Assembly (NCBI GenBank): GCA_026398275.1 | Contig: JAPLTF010000075.1 | Location: 1 to 35,150, forward strand | Reading direction: 5' to 3' | DNA: 35,150 nucleotides | Origin: Verrucomicrobiota bacterium | Lineage (GTDB): Bacteria; Verrucomicrobiota; Verrucomicrobiia; Chthoniobacterales; Terrimicrobiaceae | In this document: positions 18,736 through 26,652 of the stretch, one piece after another | How the letters are laid out: each line of letters opens with the position of its first letter | Position numbering within the stretch: position 1 is the first letter of the stretch | Position numbers and translations under genes: made by a program | Notes under the pieces: model-generated | What the model was told of the DNA's origin: nothing | Database searches by the model: none | Seen by the model: only the letters and a program-made list of their open reading frames with translations

Positions 18736-18870
18736 TGGAAATTTCCATTCCGATCAGCCTTGCAACCGTTTGCATGCTTTTCCCACTTATTCTGCGATAT
18801 TGTGCAACGCATTAATTCTGACACCTGTAGATATCAAATTATTTAAGAGCTTTTGCGGCGATTCAACCAG
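18736..18870 (+). promoter_or_regulatory. Candidate upstream control region of PEP-CTERM gene 1
   Basis: This AT-richer gap of 240 nt between ispH and the first PEP-CTERM gene holds several motifs. They are a perfect 12-bp palindrome TGGAAATTTCCA (18736-18747), GCAACCGTTTGC (18762-18773), GCAACGCATT (18804-18813) and CAACCAG (18864-18870). The last two recur at nearly the same distance from the start of the second PEP-CTERM gene (128 versus 130 nt and 68 versus 69 nt), which suggests shared regulation. The binding protein is unknown. Confidence 0.45.
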
Positions 18871-18894
18871 TTGCAGTTTTTACGAAACTTTTTG

Positions 18895-18931: not shown

Positions 18932-19780
18932 ATGAAAACAAAAACCTGTCAGATCCTCTCGGTCAGCTTGATCGCCTGTGCCATCACGAACTTCAGCGCG
19001 CAGGCGGGTTCGGTGGACATCACAGTCAACGACGGGAGCCCGAGTTCAAACTACGGCACGGACCCGCGGCCCGGGATTGGCGAATCGGGCGAAGTCGAAG
19101 CGAATTGTGTTTCCAACGCCAGCTGGGATCTGCGGGCGATGGCGTTCGACCTGACCACCCACAAATTGACGGTTGTCAGCGGATTCAATCCCCTGACGCT
19201 CAACGATGGCATCGGGATCGGCGACGTCTTCATCGACATCAACAACTCGTTCACGGTTCCATCGCGCCCGAATCTCGGCAACGGCTACTTCAACTACTCC
19301 AATTCCGCGGTCGGATATGAATACGCCATCGACCTGATTGACCCGTCGAACGGCGGTCTGGGCTACAACATCGTCGCGCTCAGCGCCGGCTCGACGCTGC
19401 AATCGGGCGGCTATACCCAGAACGCCCTCAGCGACCCCGCACGCCTGGTCGCGAGCAACGCCGATAATATCCTTTCGAGCGGGGTGTTCGCGGTGACAAC
19501 CAAAACCGATGCCCAGGTCCTCGCGGATCTCGGCATCAATGTGGGAACGAACGGCGGAACAAATTATGTTTTTTCCTTCGACCTGTCTGCCGCCTCGCTG
19601 GCGAACGGCGCGACCTTCCGGCTCACCGAAACCTGTGGGAACGACCTGCTGGTCGGCCACCTCTCGGCCTCGTCCGTCGCCGCCGTGCCTGAGACAAGCA
19701 CCTGGGTGATGGGATTCCTCGCGCTGGGCGCCGTGGTCTTCATGGTGCGCCGCAACGCCGGAGCACCGGCCGTCGCCTAA
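18932..19780 (+). CDS. PEP-CTERM-type exosortase substrate, paralog 1
   Basis: 282-residue secreted protein. A signal peptide (about 1-24, ending SAQAG) leads into a beta-rich domain with SVDITVNDGSPSSNYG, NASWDLRAMAFD, KLTVVSGFNPLTLNDGIGIGDVFID and GNGYFNYSNSAVGYEYAI. The C-terminal sorting tag has VPETSTW, a hydrophobic helix and a basic MVRRNAG tail. This is the tripartite PEP-CTERM layout with T in place of the usual second P. It is expected to be cut and anchored or released by the exosortase at 21719-23317. Most of its sequence aligns with paralog 2 at 20637-21518, which has an extra stretch of about 12-15 residues near the N-terminus. Its 3' end overlaps the convergent gene by 3 nt. 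Confidence 0.9.
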   Translation: MKTKTCQILSVSLIACAITNFSAQAGSVDITVNDGSPSSNYGTDPRPGIGESGEVEANCVSNASWDLRAMAFDLTTHKLTVVSGFNPLTLNDGIGIGDVFIDINNSFTVPSRPNLGNGYFNYSNSAVGYEYAIDLIDPSNGGLGYNIVALSAGSTLQSGGYTQNALSDPARLVASNADNILSSGVFAVTTKTDAQVLADLGINVGTNGGTNYVFSFDLSAASLANGATFRLTETCGNDLLVGHLSASSVAAVPETSTWVMGFLALGAVVFMVRRNAGAPAVA

Positions 19781-20403
19781 CGCCGGTCGTCGGAGAAGGA
19801 TCGCATCCGGGTGGCCGGCACCGGCGTCGGCGACTCGACGGCGGGGGCCTCCGGCTCGGTGTTTTGCTGAGGAGTTGGCTCGGGCTTCGCATTCGGGTCC
19901 ACCACGGAAAAGGTGAACAGCGTTTCGACGGTCACATTTTTGATTTTGTCCGTGATCGTCACCTTGAGCGTGTAGTCGCCAAAAGGATCCTTGTCCTCGA
20001 TCTGGAGCGCCGACCGTGCCTTGCAGAGCCCGATCCCTTTGCGCGGCGCTCCGTTGACAACCACCAAATCCTGCAGGTGCTCGTAGATTGAACCGTCGGG
20101 GCGGCGAAAGAGGAGAGTGTAGACGATGTCCGCATTGCCCTCCGCATTCAGCGCGTTGGTGGAATACATAACCGCCGGAAACACGATATCTCCCCGCTGG
20201 AACGAAGTCCGGGTCCGGAGCGGCGGAGGCGCCCCTTCTCTCCAATCCGCCAAAAAGGTCTTGGGATCCTCGAGCAGGGCCACTTTCAAATACAATCCGT
20301 CTTTTGCATAAATACACTGGTCAGCAGACTCGATCAGCCCATCCTCCCCGCGGGAGACAAGGGGCACCGACAAAAGGAAAAGCACGATCGCGAGGCGGGT
20401 CAT
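19777..20403 (-). CDS. Secreted protein of unknown function within the exosortase locus
   Basis: 208 residues. Signal peptide about 1-19 (MTRLAIVLFLLSVPLVSRG, cut before EDGL). A beta-rich middle domain (VALLEDPKTFLADWREGAPPP, RGDIVFPAVMYSTNALN, GDYTLKVTITDKIKNVTVETLFTFSV) resembles an Ig-like or macroglobulin-like fold, but I do not recognise the family. A proline/glutamate-rich tail (about 170-200) follows. There is no PEP-CTERM tag. The gene runs against both PEP-CTERM genes. Its stop overlaps that of paralog 1 (shared CTAA), and its start faces paralog 2 across a 233-nt divergent control region. It could act on the same surface structure, but this is only context. Confidence 0.8.
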   Translation of the reverse strand: MTRLAIVLFLLSVPLVSRGEDGLIESADQCIYAKDGLYLKVALLEDPKTFLADWREGAPPPLRTRTSFQRGDIVFPAVMYSTNALNAEGNADIVYTLLFRRPDGSIYEHLQDLVVVNGAPRKGIGLCKARSALQIEDKDPFGDYTLKVTITDKIKNVTVETLFTFSVVDPNAKPEPTPQQNTEPEAPAVESPTPVPATRMRSFSDDRR

Positions 20404-20470
20404 CGTCCGGCATTTTTATTCCCCCCTTCCACCGGCACAAGCAAAACCACTGCCGAACCAACCGCAGCAC

Positions 20471-20574
20471 AACGTTGCGCTGCAGGCAACGTTTGCTGCC
20501 CGGCACGCAACGCATTTTGAGGACAATTCGAAACTTTTATGAATTTTGCGCAAGGAATACAATCACACAACCAG
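20471..20574 (+). promoter_or_regulatory. Candidate operator sites upstream of PEP-CTERM gene 2
   Basis: An inverted repeat AACGTTGC-N7-GCAACGTT (20471-20493) is followed by GCAACGCATT (20507-20516) and CAACCAG (20568-20574). GCAACGTTTGC (20486-20496) lies 21 nt before GCAACGCATT. In front of paralog 1 the same pair is 42 nt apart, so the spacings are about two and four helical turns. These sites lie in the divergent 233-nt gap and could serve both this gene and the inverted one. Confidence 0.45.
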
Positions 20575-20598
20575 ACGCAAACATATTTCTCATTTTTG

Positions 20599-20627
20599 TT
20601 GACTGTTCTCGTCGCCCTTGATAAAAG
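20599..20627 (+). promoter_or_regulatory. Promoter of PEP-CTERM gene 2
   Basis: TTGACT (20599-20604), 17-nt spacer, TAAAAG (20622-20627). The -10 ends 9 nt before the ATG at 20637, so a leaderless or 1-3 nt leader transcript is expected. It shares TTTTTGTTGAC and GATAAA with the promoter of paralog 1. Confidence 0.6.
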
Positions 20628-20636
20628 CCCGCCGTA

Positions 20637-21518
20637 ATGCGAACTCAAACATATCAAATAATTGCTGCGGCTTCTGTCGCTTTGGCACTTTCGATTTACC
20701 ATGTGCACGCCGGCTACGTTGACATCACGATCGACGACGGGGGGCCGAAGTCCGGATCCTATACCGTGCAGGACGGCCCAGCGGCAGGCCACGCTTCATC
20801 CGACCCAAGAGGAATCAACGAGTCTGGCTCGGTTACGGCAAATTGCGTAAACAACGCCACTTGGGATCTTCGCGCGATTGCCTTCGACGTCAGCACCAAC
20901 AAATTGACGGTTGTCAGCGGCTTCAATCCGCTGGCGCTCAATGATGGCATTGGAATCGGCGACATCTTTATTGACACCAACAATTCCTACTCCGTTCCAT
21001 CGCGTCCGGATGGTGTGGGAAATGGTTATTTTAACTACGCGAATTCGACAGCTGGTTACGAATACGCCATCCACCTCATCGACCCTTCGACAGGCAATCT
21101 CAACTACAACATTGCCGCGCTCAGCGGGGCTTCGGTATTGCAATCCACGGGGTATGCCCAAAACGCATTCAGCGACCCGGCGAAGCTCATCCCGAGCGGC
21201 GCCGACACAAGCGTCTCGAGCGGACAATTCTCTGTCATCACCCTCTCGGATGCCGGTGTCCTTGCCAACATGGGAGTCAATGTGGGAACAAACGGCGGAA
21301 CAAACTATGTGTTCTCGTTTGACCTGACCGGGGTGTCGCTCGCGAACGGTGCGACGTTCCGCCTCACCGAGACCTGCGGTAATGACCTTCTCGTCGGCCA
21401 TCTCGCTGCCGGCGTCGCCATTGCGGCCGTTCCTGAAACGAGCACGTGGGTGATGGGGTTCCTGGCGCTGGGTGCCGTGGCTTTCATGGTTCGCCGCAAC
21501 GCCAGGCTCTCCGCCTGA
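20637..21518 (+). CDS. PEP-CTERM-type exosortase substrate, paralog 2
   Basis: 293-residue paralog of the protein at 18932-19780. Signal peptide about 1-25 (to HVHAG). The same domain order follows: YVDITIDDGGP, NATWDLRAIAFD, KLTVVSGFNPLALNDGIGIG, GNGYFNYANSTAGYEYAI and NVGTNGGTNYVFSFDL. The sorting tag is VPETSTW, then a hydrophobic helix and VRRNARLSA. Compared with paralog 1 it has an inserted stretch near residues 35-50 (GSYTVQDGPAAGHA). Both copies and their upstream regions appear to come from one duplication. It is the gene next to the exosortase but has its own terminator. Confidence 0.9.
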   Translation: MRTQTYQIIAAASVALALSIYHVHAGYVDITIDDGGPKSGSYTVQDGPAAGHASSDPRGINESGSVTANCVNNATWDLRAIAFDVSTNKLTVVSGFNPLALNDGIGIGDIFIDTNNSYSVPSRPDGVGNGYFNYANSTAGYEYAIHLIDPSTGNLNYNIAALSGASVLQSTGYAQNAFSDPAKLIPSGADTSVSSGQFSVITLSDAGVLANMGVNVGTNGGTNYVFSFDLTGVSLANGATFRLTETCGNDLLVGHLAAGVAIAAVPETSTWVMGFLALGAVAFMVRRNARLSA

Positions 21519-21539
21519 TTGCTTTTGGTTTGTCCGGCT

Positions 21540-21573
21540 CCCGGCTCTCCCTGAGGGCCGGGGGTCTTTTTTT
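21540..21573 (+). terminator. Intrinsic terminator after PEP-CTERM gene 2
   Basis: Stem CCCGGCTCTC (21540-21549) / GAGGGCCGGG (21553-21562), ten pairs with one G-U, loop CCT, followed by GGTC and seven T (21567-21573). A strong terminator that separates the abundant substrate transcript from the exosortase gene. Confidence 0.9.
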
Positions 21574-21718
21574 GCCCGGGTTGCACGCCCTGCGGAGCGG
21601 TTCACGGCCGCCTCTCCCTGACTCGGAAGTTCGGCTTTCTTCCTGAGCCGGCTCTTTCTGTTTGCGCAGTCAGCCATGGCTCGGGATACTTGCGGGCGTC
21701 GATGAATCACCACGGCAC

Positions 21719-23317
21719 ATGAGGGAAGCTACGGAAAATGGCAGCAGACGGACCGATCCCTCGCCGCCTGCGGAAAAGATTCTGGCGGGCGGCTCGCCCG
21801 GCATCCCGCACTGGTGCCTCGTGCTTCTGGGCTTCGGCTTCACCCCTTTGCTCGCCACGTTTTTTTTCAATCTCTGGAAGCAGCCGGAGTATCAGTTCTT
21901 TCCGCAGGCCCTTGCCGCCGCCGGATTTCTGGCATGGGACCGGCTGCGTGAGGTTCCCCGGGGCATGCTTCGGGGAAAGCCGGCACCTGCCGCCGTGCTC
22001 CTGCTGCTCTCGTTGACAATGCTGGCCCTCGCCGTCCTCGTCTGGTCGCCGTGGCTCGCGATCGTCGCTTCCCTGCCTGCTGGAATCGCTGTTCTGTGGC
22101 TGATTGGCGGGGGTCAGCTCCTGCGGAATGCGGCCCCGGCCATGGTGATGGTCCTGACGATCATCCCGCCGCCGCTCGGGCTGGATCTCCGGCTGGGCCT
22201 GTTCCTGCGCGAGCTGGCCACGATCCTGAGCAGCCGCACATTGGATCTGCTGGGGGTCATCCATTCCGTGAGCGGAAATGTCATCGAGCTGCCCGGCCAG
22301 AAGCTGCTCGTGGAAGAAGCCTGCAGCGGCATCAACTCGGTCCTCTTCGTCACGGCGTTTTGCCTGTTCTACCTTTTCTGGCGACGCCGCCCGCTCTGGT
22401 GTTTCCTCATCTGCCTGCCCGCTTCGCTCGCATTCGTCGTGATGGGAAATGTGGTCCGGATTTCGCTCGGGGCCAGCCTCAGGTATTACAAGGGAATCGA
22501 CCTCCTGACGGGCTGGAAGCACGAGACGGAGAGCATCATTCTTGTGGCGTTATACGTCCTGCTGGTCGTGAGCCTCGAATCTCTCTTTCCGCGGAGCAAA
22601 ACCGGCGACCGCAAGGCGCTGCCGCCGGCCGCCGGGCTTTCATCCCCGCTAAACTTTCCTGTTTGGTTCAAGGCCGCGTGCGCGGTGTTCGCCGCTCTCG
22701 GCGTGCTCTCCACCTTCCAAGTGTGGGAAAAATCGAACGAGGGGATCCAGCCGCTGCGGGCCGCAGATTCCCGCCTGGCGGACGGTGCGGTTTTCTCGCT
22801 GCCGGGGCGGATCGGAGACTGGTCCCGATCCGAAACCGGGCCGCCAACGGTCAACAAGATCGAGACGCTGGGCCTGTCGTCGGCGATTTGGAACTTCCAG
22901 CGCCCGGGAATGCAGGCGGTCATCGCCTTCGACTACCCGATCTGGCGCTACCACGATGTCGAGGGCTGCTACTCCAACAACGGATGGACCGTGGAGAGAA
23001 AAGAAATTTTTGTGCCGAAGACCGGTGCCCCGCCGCGCTTCCAGATGGAGATGAAAAAGGATCCGGGGATTCGGGGGACCCTCTGGTTCGCCACGATCAA
23101 CGAAAAGGGAGAGTGGGTGGACCAGGCAACGGTGAAGCACGATTTCATCAGCCGCATCGGCCTCTTTGAAGGCCCGCAGGAAACGACCTACCGGGTCCAG
23201 CTCCTTCTTGCAGGCGACAAGGCCCCGGACGCGGCCGCGATCGAAGCGATGACCCAGTTGTTCGAGGAAGCCTCCGACATCCTCTCGCGGCAGATGTTGC
23301 AGCAAATCCGGAAATGA
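21719..23317 (+). CDS. Exosortase fused to an EpsI-like (DUF3485) domain
   Basis: 532-residue inner-membrane transpeptidase-like enzyme that should recognise the PEP-CTERM tags of the neighbouring proteins. About eight membrane helices fill residues 30-320. The exosortase triad is present: Cys202 in LVEEACSGINS, Arg247 in MGNVVRISLG and His268 in GWKHETES. After a further helix (about 320-345) the C-terminal 200 residues form an EpsI/DUF3485 domain with FDYPIWRYHDVEGCYSNNGW, the family's CY..GW motif. In many systems EpsI is a separate protein; here it is fused. The ATG at 21719 is preferred; an in-frame TTG at 21662 is possible. It overlaps the next gene by ATGA. Confidence 0.93.
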   Translation: MREATENGSRRTDPSPPAEKILAGGSPGIPHWCLVLLGFGFTPLLATFFFNLWKQPEYQFFPQALAAAGFLAWDRLREVPRGMLRGKPAPAAVLLLLSLTMLALAVLVWSPWLAIVASLPAGIAVLWLIGGGQLLRNAAPAMVMVLTIIPPPLGLDLRLGLFLRELATILSSRTLDLLGVIHSVSGNVIELPGQKLLVEEACSGINSVLFVTAFCLFYLFWRRRPLWCFLICLPASLAFVVMGNVVRISLGASLRYYKGIDLLTGWKHETESIILVALYVLLVVSLESLFPRSKTGDRKALPPAAGLSSPLNFPVWFKAACAVFAALGVLSTFQVWEKSNEGIQPLRAADSRLADGAVFSLPGRIGDWSRSETGPPTVNKIETLGLSSAIWNFQRPGMQAVIAFDYPIWRYHDVEGCYSNNGWTVERKEIFVPKTGAPPRFQMEMKKDPGIRGTLWFATINEKGEWVDQATVKHDFISRIGLFEGPQETTYRVQLLLAGDKAPDAAAIEAMTQLFEEASDILSRQMLQQIRK

Positions 23318-23823
23318 ACTCCTCCCCTCCCGCAGCGCCTGTCGCAAGTCCCGCCTCCACCTCGATCTGGATCAAAATCCCGGCGATTCTCGCCATCGCG
23401 TTCTGCCTGGCCCTGGGCATTTCGTTCCTCCGTTGGAATCCCGCCATGATCGCTTTGCGCTATCAGGCGATCGCCCTGAACGCTCTCGATCGGAAAGATT
23501 ATCCAACCGCCATCGTCGCCGCCAGCCGGCTTCTGAGTCTTGGAGGGGAAACCCGGAACGATGCGCTCTTCAAACTCGCATTGGCGAACCTGGGACTGGG
23601 CCGGAACGCCGAATCCTTGGGGATCATGCAGATCATCGCGCCGGTCGACAGGCCGGTCTATGCGCCCGCCCACCTCTATGTTGCACGCACTCTGATGGCA
23701 CGCGCCTACCGCCCTCCACAGGTGGAACAGGCGATCGCCGCGCAGTTGGAGAACGCGCTCAGGCTGGAGCCGGATTCCTCCGAAGCCAAGGAACTTCGGG
23801 ACCGCCTGCACAATCGGAGGTAA
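23314..23823 (+). CDS. Membrane-anchored TPR-like protein in the exosortase operon
   Basis: 169 residues. A single N-terminal membrane helix (about 19-37, WIKIPAILAIAFCLALG) is followed by helical repeats in TPR style. These include AMIALRYQAIALNALDRKDYPTAIVAASRLL, DALFKLALANLGLGRNAESLGIM and EQAIAAQLENALRLEPDSSEAKELRDRL. No enzyme motif. The start codon overlaps the exosortase stop (ATGA), so the two are translated together. It probably serves as a scaffold or partner for sorting or for the surface polymer machinery. Confidence 0.8.
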   Translation: MNSSPPAAPVASPASTSIWIKIPAILAIAFCLALGISFLRWNPAMIALRYQAIALNALDRKDYPTAIVAASRLLSLGGETRNDALFKLALANLGLGRNAESLGIMQIIAPVDRPVYAPAHLYVARTLMARAYRPPQVEQAIAAQLENALRLEPDSSEAKELRDRLHNRR

Positions 23824-24394: not shown

Positions 24395-25693
24395 TCACCG
24401 CCCGCAGACTTCTTCGATCGCGAGCCCGATCGCCGACACGGCGCTGCGCAGCTGGCTTTCGCTCGTGCAGAGAGGAGGCATGAGAACAATCGTGTCGAGC
24501 ACAGGACGAGTGAGGAGTCCATGCTTCCTGGCGGCTTCGCAAATTCTTCCGCCGGTCCGCGCCTGCCAGGGAAACGCCTCACCCCCGCGATCCCGGACCT
24601 CGATCCCCGCAATGAATCCGCACTGGCGGATGTCGTGGATGCACGGATGCGATTGCAATTCCGCGAGCAGGCGGGACATCGCCGCAATTTTCGGCTGCAA
24701 TGTTTCGAGCACATGTTCCTCGCGGAAGACATCGAGGCTCGCCAGCGCAGCCGCGCAGCCAAGCGCGTTGCCGGTATAGCTGTGTCCGTAATAAAACGTC
24801 TTCTGCTCGTCGAACTCCCCGAGAAACGCTGAGAAAACTCTTTCCGTGGTGAGGGTGGCCGCCAGCGGCATGTATCCCCCGGTGAGGCCCTTGGCGAGGC
24901 AAAGAAAATCCGGGATCACATCCTCCTGCTCGCAGGCAAACATCGTCCCCGTCCGTCCAAACCCGGTCAGCACCTCGTCAAGAATCAGGAGCGCCCCGAT
25001 CGAGTCGCACTTCTCGCGCAGCCGGCGGAGCAACCCCTTCGGCCAGACGCGCATTCCCGCGGCCCCCTGAATGAGCGGCTCGATGACAACCGCAGCAATC
25101 TCCCCGCCCGGCAGCCGGTCGAGTTCTTCCGGATCGGAGATCCGGTCCACTGGAAACTGATGGCCGGCAAATCGTCCGTGGAATGCCCCGATGCCGCCGA
25201 GGCTTGCCGCCCCGGCCGTATCCCCATGGTAGGCCTGATCAAATGATACGAAGCGCCGGCGCTCCGGCGCTCCGCTCAGCTGCCAGAACTGGATCGCCAT
25301 CTTCATCGCCGCCTCGACGGCGGTCGACCCGTCGTCGCTGAAGAATACCCGCGGGAGTGCCTGCGCGGGGAAGAGCCCGGCGAGTCGCCCGGCAAGCTCG
25401 GCCGCAGGAGCGTTTGTTGTCCCAAGAAAAGATACGTGCGCCACGCGGTCGAGTTGGCCGCAGATGGCCCCCGTGATTTTCGGATGCCCGTGCCCGTGGA
25501 TATTTGTCCAGATCGAGGAATTTCCGTCGAGGTATTCGCGGCCCCGGCTGTCCCGGAGCACCGCCCCCTCGCCACCGACCAGAATGACCGGCTCATGATC
25601 GTCCGCGCACCAGGCCTTCATCTGGGTGAACGGATGCCAGCCATGCGCCTTGTCCAAGGCGGCCAATGATTCTGTGTTCCAAACGTCTCGCAT
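24395..25693 (-). CDS. bioA: Adenosylmethionine-8-amino-7-oxononanoate aminotransferase
   Basis: PLP enzyme of biotin synthesis that transfers the amino group of S-adenosylmethionine to KAPA, giving DAPA. 432 residues. Visible are the family motif WHPFTQMKAW near residue 19, IWTNIHGHGHPKI, the PLP-phosphate region SDDGSTAVEAAMKMA, the PLP-binding Asp239 in LILDEVLTGFGRTG and the Schiff-base Lys268 in LCLAKGLTGGYMPLAATLTT. The ATG at 25693 is chosen over an upstream in-frame codon because the motif then sits at its usual distance. Other bio genes are not in the window. Biotin is needed by acetyl-CoA carboxylase, whose accA and accD are here. Confidence 0.95.
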   Translation of the reverse strand: MRDVWNTESLAALDKAHGWHPFTQMKAWCADDHEPVILVGGEGAVLRDSRGREYLDGNSSIWTNIHGHGHPKITGAICGQLDRVAHVSFLGTTNAPAAELAGRLAGLFPAQALPRVFFSDDGSTAVEAAMKMAIQFWQLSGAPERRRFVSFDQAYHGDTAGAASLGGIGAFHGRFAGHQFPVDRISDPEELDRLPGGEIAAVVIEPLIQGAAGMRVWPKGLLRRLREKCDSIGALLILDEVLTGFGRTGTMFACEQEDVIPDFLCLAKGLTGGYMPLAATLTTERVFSAFLGEFDEQKTFYYGHSYTGNALGCAAALASLDVFREEHVLETLQPKIAAMSRLLAELQSHPCIHDIRQCGFIAGIEVRDRGGEAFPWQARTGGRICEAARKHGLLTRPVLDTIVLMPPLCTSESQLRSAVSAIGLAIEEVCGR

Positions 25694-25701
25694 CGCGGCG
25701 C

Positions 25702-25730
25702 AAAATACCGCATACCCTCGTGCAGGTGAA
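25702..25730 (-). promoter_or_regulatory. Promoter of bioA
   Basis: On the minus strand TTCACC (25730-25725), 17-nt spacer, TATTTT (25707-25702), ending 8 nt before the bioA ATG. Another case where the predicted transcript has nearly no leader. No BirA-type operator was recognised. Confidence 0.45.
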
Positions 25731-26652
25731 ATCAAATCCCGTCATCCTCCGCGCGCTGGCATACTTTTCGGGGGTCATCCTGCTCGCGTGCCTCCTCTCC
25801 CCTCCGCTGTATTGGGCGGGCTCGGCTCTCGCAGAGAAGGGCGTTCTGCCATTTCTCAAAGGCTTCCCGTTCCACCGCTACTTCAGCCGCTGCATGCAAC
25901 TCAGCGCCCTGCTCATGCTCTGGCCGGCATTCCGGTGGATCGGGCTCCGCCGCACCGGCGAGCTCGGGATCGAACGCAACCCGCTCTGGCGGCGCGATCT
26001 TCTCGTCCGCCTGGCCATCGCGCTCATCCCGGTCATCGCCCTGGGGGCGGGATATCTGGCTTTCGATGTTTATGATTTGAAAAAAAGCATCCCGGTCGCC
26101 GGCGCGCTCCGGATTCTGGCGACCGCCGGGTTGGTTGCCATTCTTGAGGAGTTTCTTTTCCGCGGAGTCCTCCTCGGCCTCTGCCTCCGCTCGATGAAGC
26201 CGCTGCCGGCGGCTCTGGTTTCCTCGGCGGTGTTCGCAATTGTCCATTTTCTGCGCGTCGCGAAGTCCGCCACCGAGCCGGCCGTGAGCTGGCTCAGCGG
26301 GTTCGCACAGCTCCCCCAGGCGTTCTCGAGCGCACCTCCATGGCCGCTGCTCGGCTGGGGCATGCTCTCCCTGCTGCTCGCGGGCATCGTCCTCGCCATG
26401 GCCACCCTCCGCACCCGCTCGCTCTTCCTGCCGATCGGCCTTCACGCCGGGTGGATCCTCGGACAGCAGGGGCTCCAGTGGCTCGCAAAATTCCGCATCA
26501 AGCCGCCGGATGCTTTGCTGCCGTGGGTCGGCCAGAATGTCGTCAGCGGCGCGGTTCCGACCGGCCTCATCCCCTCGGGCATTTTGTTGCTCACGATGGC
26601 CCTGGCATTCTACTATCTGGGCCATGTCAGGGATCGCCGCACCTCTTCTTGA
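25720..26652 (+). CDS. CPBP-family intramembrane metalloprotease
   Basis: 310-residue membrane protein with about eight helices of the CPBP (Rce1/Abi-like) family of glutamic-type intramembrane proteases. Motif 1 is ILEEFLFRGVLLGLCLR (EExxxR), motif 2 is VFAIVHFL (FxxxH), and motif 3 is LPIGLHAGWILG. The substrate is unknown. The start is uncertain: GTG at 25720 or 25726 places the signal-like helix correctly, while the frame is open back to 25666 but that would overlap bioA. It diverges from bioA across a very short gap. Confidence 0.87.
   Translation: MQVKSNPVILRALAYFSGVILLACLLSPPLYWAGSALAEKGVLPFLKGFPFHRYFSRCMQLSALLMLWPAFRWIGLRRTGELGIERNPLWRRDLLVRLAIALIPVIALGAGYLAFDVYDLKKSIPVAGALRILATAGLVAILEEFLFRGVLLGLCLRSMKPLPAALVSSAVFAIVHFLRVAKSATEPAVSWLSGFAQLPQAFSSAPPWPLLGWGMLSLLLAGIVLAMATLRTRSLFLPIGLHAGWILGQQGLQWLAKFRIKPPDALLPWVGQNVVSGAVPTGLIPSGILLLTMALAFYYLGHVRDRRTSS

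Follow-up and report, generated by a model that had tools for sequence, protein, structure and literature searches.

An exosortase locus of five genes occupies positions 18932–23823 of the stretch of DNA analysed here (the window: 35,150 nucleotides, positions 1 to 35,150 of contig JAPLTF010000075.1 from a Verrucomicrobiota bacterium). It encodes two paralogous secreted proteins with a C-terminal sorting tag, an inverted gene for another secreted protein, an exosortase and a coupled membrane TPR protein. This arrangement had been described in an original prediction, made from the sequence alone, and an open reading frame (ORF) check bears it out gene by gene. As also predicted, the tag reads VPET instead of VPEP at both substrate tails. 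The enzyme is, by its profile matches, of a known type, exosortase U (XrtU). We put at about three in four the probability that XrtU and its TPR partner form a dedicated exosortase/tag pair with VPET, processing a small set of at least six proteins encoded at five loci of the genome.

Organization of the Locus

Substrate 1 (18932–19780, forward strand; an ORF of 282 amino acids) is a secreted protein with an N-terminal signal peptide and a C-terminal VPET tag, and substrate 2 (20637–21518, forward strand; 293 amino acids) is its paralogue with 70% identity. They score 77.2 and 76.6 bits, respectively, with a profile of the tag. By sequence reading, the tag is VPETSTWVMGFLALGAVVFMVRR at 19685–19753 in substrate 1 and VPETSTWVMGFLALGAVAFMVRR at 21429–21497 in substrate 2, both on the forward strand, and both proteins end in VPETSTWVMGFLALGAV-x-FMVRRN. 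The same reading reveals the whole PEP-CTERM layout, namely a signal peptide, the motif, a transmembrane helix and a basic cluster at the extreme C-terminus. Against the PEP-CTERM family PF07589 (cut-off 20.7 bits), the two substrates score 17.0 and 18.9 bits by hmmscan and 21.4 and 22.0 bits in a genome search.

The exosortase gene (21719–23317, forward strand) likely starts at ATG 21719 rather than at the alternative TTG 21662. A strong hairpin resembling an intrinsic terminator by consensus match (21536–21566, forward strand; 14-bp stem followed by T7) stands between substrate 2 and the exosortase, and thus the two genes are probably not in one operon. The TPR gene (23314–23823, forward strand) is tightly coupled: its start and the exosortase stop share ATGA, an overlap of 4 bp. 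A TPR homologue lies directly 3′ of XrtU in 12 verrucomicrobial loci, and the 4-bp overlap recurs at L136 and L155.

The Exosortase and Its C-Terminal Domain

The enzyme scores 120.9 bits with PF09721 (cut-off 25.7) and 44.4 bits with TIGR04178 (cut-off 23), which places its eight-transmembrane core in the exosortase family. The catalytic motifs of exosortases are CxG, NxxR and HxxxG (PMC1569441). Here, the corresponding residues within 22322–22522 (forward strand) are C202, R247 and H268, numbered from ATG 21719, with codons TGC (22322–22324), CGG (22457–22459) and CAC (22520–22522). All three are invariant in 12 XrtU homologues; the triad is intact, as had been proposed. Other exosortase subfamilies have likewise been named for a variant tag of their own, such as XrtC for VPDSG-CTERM (TIGR04151) and XrtD for VPLPA-CTERM (TIGR04152); the window enzyme falls far below both, with 36.8 bits (cut-off 300) and 98.5 bits (cut-off 400), respectively.

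The C-terminal domain (22808–23302, forward strand; residues 383–547 of the TTG-started ORF) matches NF033780, the XrtU C-terminal model, with 109.9 bits against a cut-off of 40. It is predicted to have an alpha/beta fold and has an invariant H..CY...GW motif. Exosortase U has this same combination of core and C-terminal domain, and therefore the fusion emphasized in the original prediction is not new; exosortases with EpsI-homologous C-termini had already been described in 2006 (PMC1569441). The prediction had named the fused part as EpsI/DUF3485. An EpsI-like C-terminal domain is indeed present, but it has no match to PF11984 (DUF3485/EpsI), and the sole gene of the genome above the PF11984 cut-off is a free EpsI at C1:30550. 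The XrtU domain contains YHDVEGCYSNNGW, which resembles HRPETCLPAQGW of this free EpsI. An hhalign comparison of the two gave a probability of 1.3%, which is not significant, yet it aligned the H..C...GW motif. H78, C83, Y84, G88 and W89 of the domain are invariant in 16 homologues. On these sequence features, the label "EpsI-like" is fair and "DUF3485" is not supported. An AlphaFold2 model of the domain reached a predicted local distance difference test score (pLDDT) of 84.6, and a search of PDB structures with it returned no match at E ≤ 0.001, so that no function is assigned to the domain.

A contig search with an alignment query recovered XrtU relatives at about 30 loci in Verrucomicrobia and more distant ones in Planctomycetes, where a single-protein query had returned nothing. 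No paper on XrtU was found in the literature collection searched, and the model line of NF033780 names no cognate tag.

VPET as a Distinct Tag Class

The genome to which the window belongs (G000; 4.66 Mb in 117 contigs) encodes four exosortases: XrtU of the window and one each on contigs C1, C51 (XrtZ) and C65. That on C1 has the free EpsI alongside and lies within a glycosyltransferase cluster. About 45 PEP-CTERM tails were collected by profile searches, any tail missed by both profiles being overlooked, and about 40 of them are ordinary V/IPEP types unlike VPET in sequence. The VPET tag is found on at least six proteins belonging to four ectodomain families without clear mutual similarity: two are the window proteins, a third (C36:62729) is a further paralogue of these (66%), and the other three, two encoded at C19 and one at C33, have unrelated ectodomains. 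One of the C19 proteins scores 22.4 bits with PF07589. A structure model of the substrate ectodomain, built from a three-sequence alignment, had a mean pLDDT of 34 and was unusable.

The original prediction had envisaged a closed surface system, limited to the window locus, of one enzyme and two substrates. Two paralogues do adjoin the enzyme, and a relative (G001) has a VPET paralogue 80 bp 5′ of XrtU, so that substrate and enzyme are linked in two genomes, the synteny that the prediction had suggested looking for. With a third paralogue and three unrelated VPET proteins encoded elsewhere, and with three other exosortases and about 40 ordinary tails in the same cell, such a closed system is nevertheless very improbable, unless the unlinked VPET proteins turn out not to be processed by XrtU. 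Dozens of substrates together with a second exosortase, the observation that the prediction had named as fatal to it, are what the genome contains if the words are read literally. As the tails split into classes, however, the idea of a dedicated pair survives.

The six tails of the genome share 17 invariant alignment columns, with the consensus VPETSTWVMGFLALGAVxFMVRR. Among 11 VPET tails from three genomes, carried by ectodomains of different families without clear similarity, most of the invariant codons differ synonymously. This points to purifying selection on the tail peptide; recent copying alone would not account for the pattern. By these comparisons, VPET is a real, separate and near-invariant tag class.

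Another very uniform tail class, VPEP[AT]TWALLAFSLTTVMVLRRRR, was seen on more than 10 proteins of this genome (e.g., L024, L025, L028–L031, L034 and L050–L054), many of them with long open frames.

An operator-like element, CAACCNNNYGCR (e.g., TGCAACCGTTTGCA), occurs at 18763–18774, 18864–18875 and 20568–20579 of the window and also 5′ of VPET genes in L023, L065, L041, L115, L129 and L130. It lies less than 100 bp from most VPET starts, and no other PEP-CTERM gene that was inspected has it nearby. The element was chosen post hoc, and a de novo motif search of the VPET promoters of the genome did no better than with shuffled sequences or other PEP-CTERM promoters; thus it is treated as a lead only, not as a shared upstream element.

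Co-Occurrence of the Tag and the Enzyme

Among 117 related genomes, VPET tails (≥66 bits) are confined to G000 (six), G001 (four) and G003 (one), which are exactly the genomes having XrtU at ≥55% identity, and G002, a congener, lacks both the tag and a close XrtU. When 384 genomes sampled across the class were searched, tag matches above 45 bits occurred only in G000 and G003, both of which are XrtU-positive. These are draft assemblies, in which the XrtU genes of both key relatives lie on contigs of just 3–6 kb. In G003, the region 5′ of XrtU (L066, G003:C120, 1–1330) was judged by eye to be a transposase-like coding sequence, a possible reason for the lack of an adjacent substrate gene there. 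The VPET gene of G003 and its XrtU gene are both located at contig ends.

As the VPET genomes are close kin, a prospective check was made on a second XrtU clade. A tag profile for this clade, VPEPGQVAASLLLL, was built from four substrates encoded ≤7 kb from clade-2 XrtU genes and searched in the same 117 genomes. At ≥38 bits it matched nine genomes, all nine of which are XrtU-positive, and after removal of the seed genomes the remaining five of five were still XrtU-positive. The carriers (loci L116, L117, L121 and L126; genomes G008, G011, G013–G016, G018, G064 and G095) have up to six such proteins per genome. Six XrtU-negative genomes of the same genus had no VPEPGQVAASLLLL match, and XrtU-negative G105 had a partial one of 28.6 bits. 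Fisher's exact test gave p of about 9e-11 overall and 0.011 within genus g2, with genomes treated as independent, kinship ignored and the four seed genomes included among the nine. At other XrtU loci, a nearby substrate carries yet another tail.

Several observations weigh against a dedicated pair. The three genomes with both VPET and a close XrtU share one genus, which makes them close to a single evolutionary observation, and the genome of G002 is small, so that it could have lost both tag and enzyme by chance. PETSTW-type tails (42–44 bits) occur in G076 and G086, of another family, without XrtU at the threshold used and with an exosortase of another type having a fused EpsI, and thus a PET core alone is no mark of XrtU. 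Clade-2 XrtU also occurs without the clade-2 tag in several genomes, three of which are 64–86% complete, and in G001, for its second XrtU. Finally, four of the six VPET genes of the window's genome are unlinked to XrtU.

These scattered genes would suit a shared pool, in which every PEP-CTERM-like tail is a target of all four exosortases or of the main one, VPET being a lineage flavour and the neighbours of XrtU a coincidence. PEP tails are degenerate, and the ordinary tails of the genome include intermediate sequences such as VPEPKTWVM. A shared pool would leave three things unexplained: a whole 22-residue tail near-invariant on unrelated proteins in spite of synonymous divergence, the lack of both tag and enzyme in G002, and the independent clade-2 tag that tracks XrtU in nine genomes. 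We therefore regard it as unlikely.

XrtU might instead be losing its function, with the tails as relics. Its TPR partner has 169 amino acids as compared with mostly 500–900 in other Verrucomicrobia, and the HxxxG glycine is replaced by Ser both in the window enzyme and in G001; together with the PET rather than PEP tag, these two traits distinguish the window lineage from exosortase U in general. That a longer TPR gene had been broken by a downstream frameshift was considered and rejected, as no remnant of the missing part was found downstream. Decay of the locus is hardly credible, since all reading frames are intact, the triad is invariant, the tails appear to be under purifying selection, and G001 and G003 retain XrtU, the tag and the convergent gene.

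In G086 and G076, IPETSTWVIGALALGAIG-type tails are encoded about 11 kb (L275, G086:C25) and about 31 kb (L086, G076:C34) from an XrtA-like exosortase, encoded on the same contig, that has a fused EpsI motif. They are possibly another enzyme-tag pair.

Neighbouring Genes

The convergent gene (19777–20403, reverse strand) shares 4 bp with the 3′ end of substrate 1 and encodes a secreted protein, possibly an accessory, that has no Pfam or NCBIfam match. Its close homologues (62–65%) are found only in the two relatives having XrtU and VPET tags. The G001 homologue likewise converges on a VPET gene, although the ectodomain encoded there is a different one.

The exosortase is flanked by genes for LytB, AccA, AccD, a Mur-ligase-type protein, an aminotransferase and LptF/G. 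No polysaccharide gene is found among these annotated neighbours, as the original prediction had noted, and the location is thus not that of an exopolysaccharide-linked exosortase A. The neighbours give no indication of the role of the substrates. About 2 kb 3′ of the locus, at 25666–26652, is a gene for a CAAX-type membrane protease (PF02517), with an opposite-strand aminotransferase gene in between; fusions of EpsH with a CAAX protease are on record (PMC1569441).

A Putative Dedicated Sorting Channel

An outline of the proposed process is as follows. The substrates would cross the inner membrane via Sec, and the tail helix would halt in the membrane, PET lying at its outer face and the RR cluster on the inner side. 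The Cys/Arg/His site of XrtU would then cut near PET and transfer the protein to an acceptor, so that the product would be surface-attached or released. The EpsI-like domain and the TPR protein may aid in handling the substrate or the acceptor. The conventional C1 exosortase with its free EpsI would run in parallel, presumably serving ordinary VPEP tails. The proposal of cutting and transfer by XrtU draws on two analogies, the PEP-CTERM/EpsH model (PMC1569441) and cyanoexosortase B, deletion of which lowers the amount of extracellular PEP-CTERM proteins (PMC12188702).

The likeness to the PEP-CTERM/EpsH system of the exosortase A type extends to the signal peptide, the tripartite tail (motif, helix and basic cluster), an exosortase with the C/R/H triad, an EpsI-type domain, a TPR protein and many substrates scattered over the genome (PMC1569441). 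XrtU of the window differs from it in lying outside an exopolysaccharide cluster, in its distinct tag class and in sharing the cell with several exosortases. In the rhombosortase/GlyGly-CTERM system, the pairing of enzyme and tag was likewise inferred from co-distribution and adjacency, with many substrates to one enzyme, but the enzyme is unrelated and adjacency is found mainly where a genome has a single target (PMC3237569).

Most likely, judging from tag class, co-occurrence and linkage, XrtU handles only the small VPET-tailed set beside a general sorting machinery. The best reading of these sequence data is that XrtU, together with tags specific to each lineage, makes up dedicated sorting channels with many substrates to one enzyme, which operate alongside the conventional polysaccharide-linked exosortase. 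A wider proposal, to which we give somewhat less than even odds, is that several orthogonal exosortase channels exist per cell, that each has a near-invariant tail code of its own, and that XrtU lineages have changed their code repeatedly (VPETSTWVMGFLALG; VPEPGQVAASLLLL; VPEPSQA-AG-MLLGCG; others). Enzyme and tag would then co-evolve, and the code would be readable across genomes.

Where a genome encodes several exosortases, the assignment of tails to enzymes is seldom known. A tail class that tracks one enzyme amid about 40 other tails provides a natural internal control for studying substrate recognition by exosortases and the residues that determine specificity, and the XrtU loci across Verrucomicrobia offer several enzyme-tag pairs for comparison.

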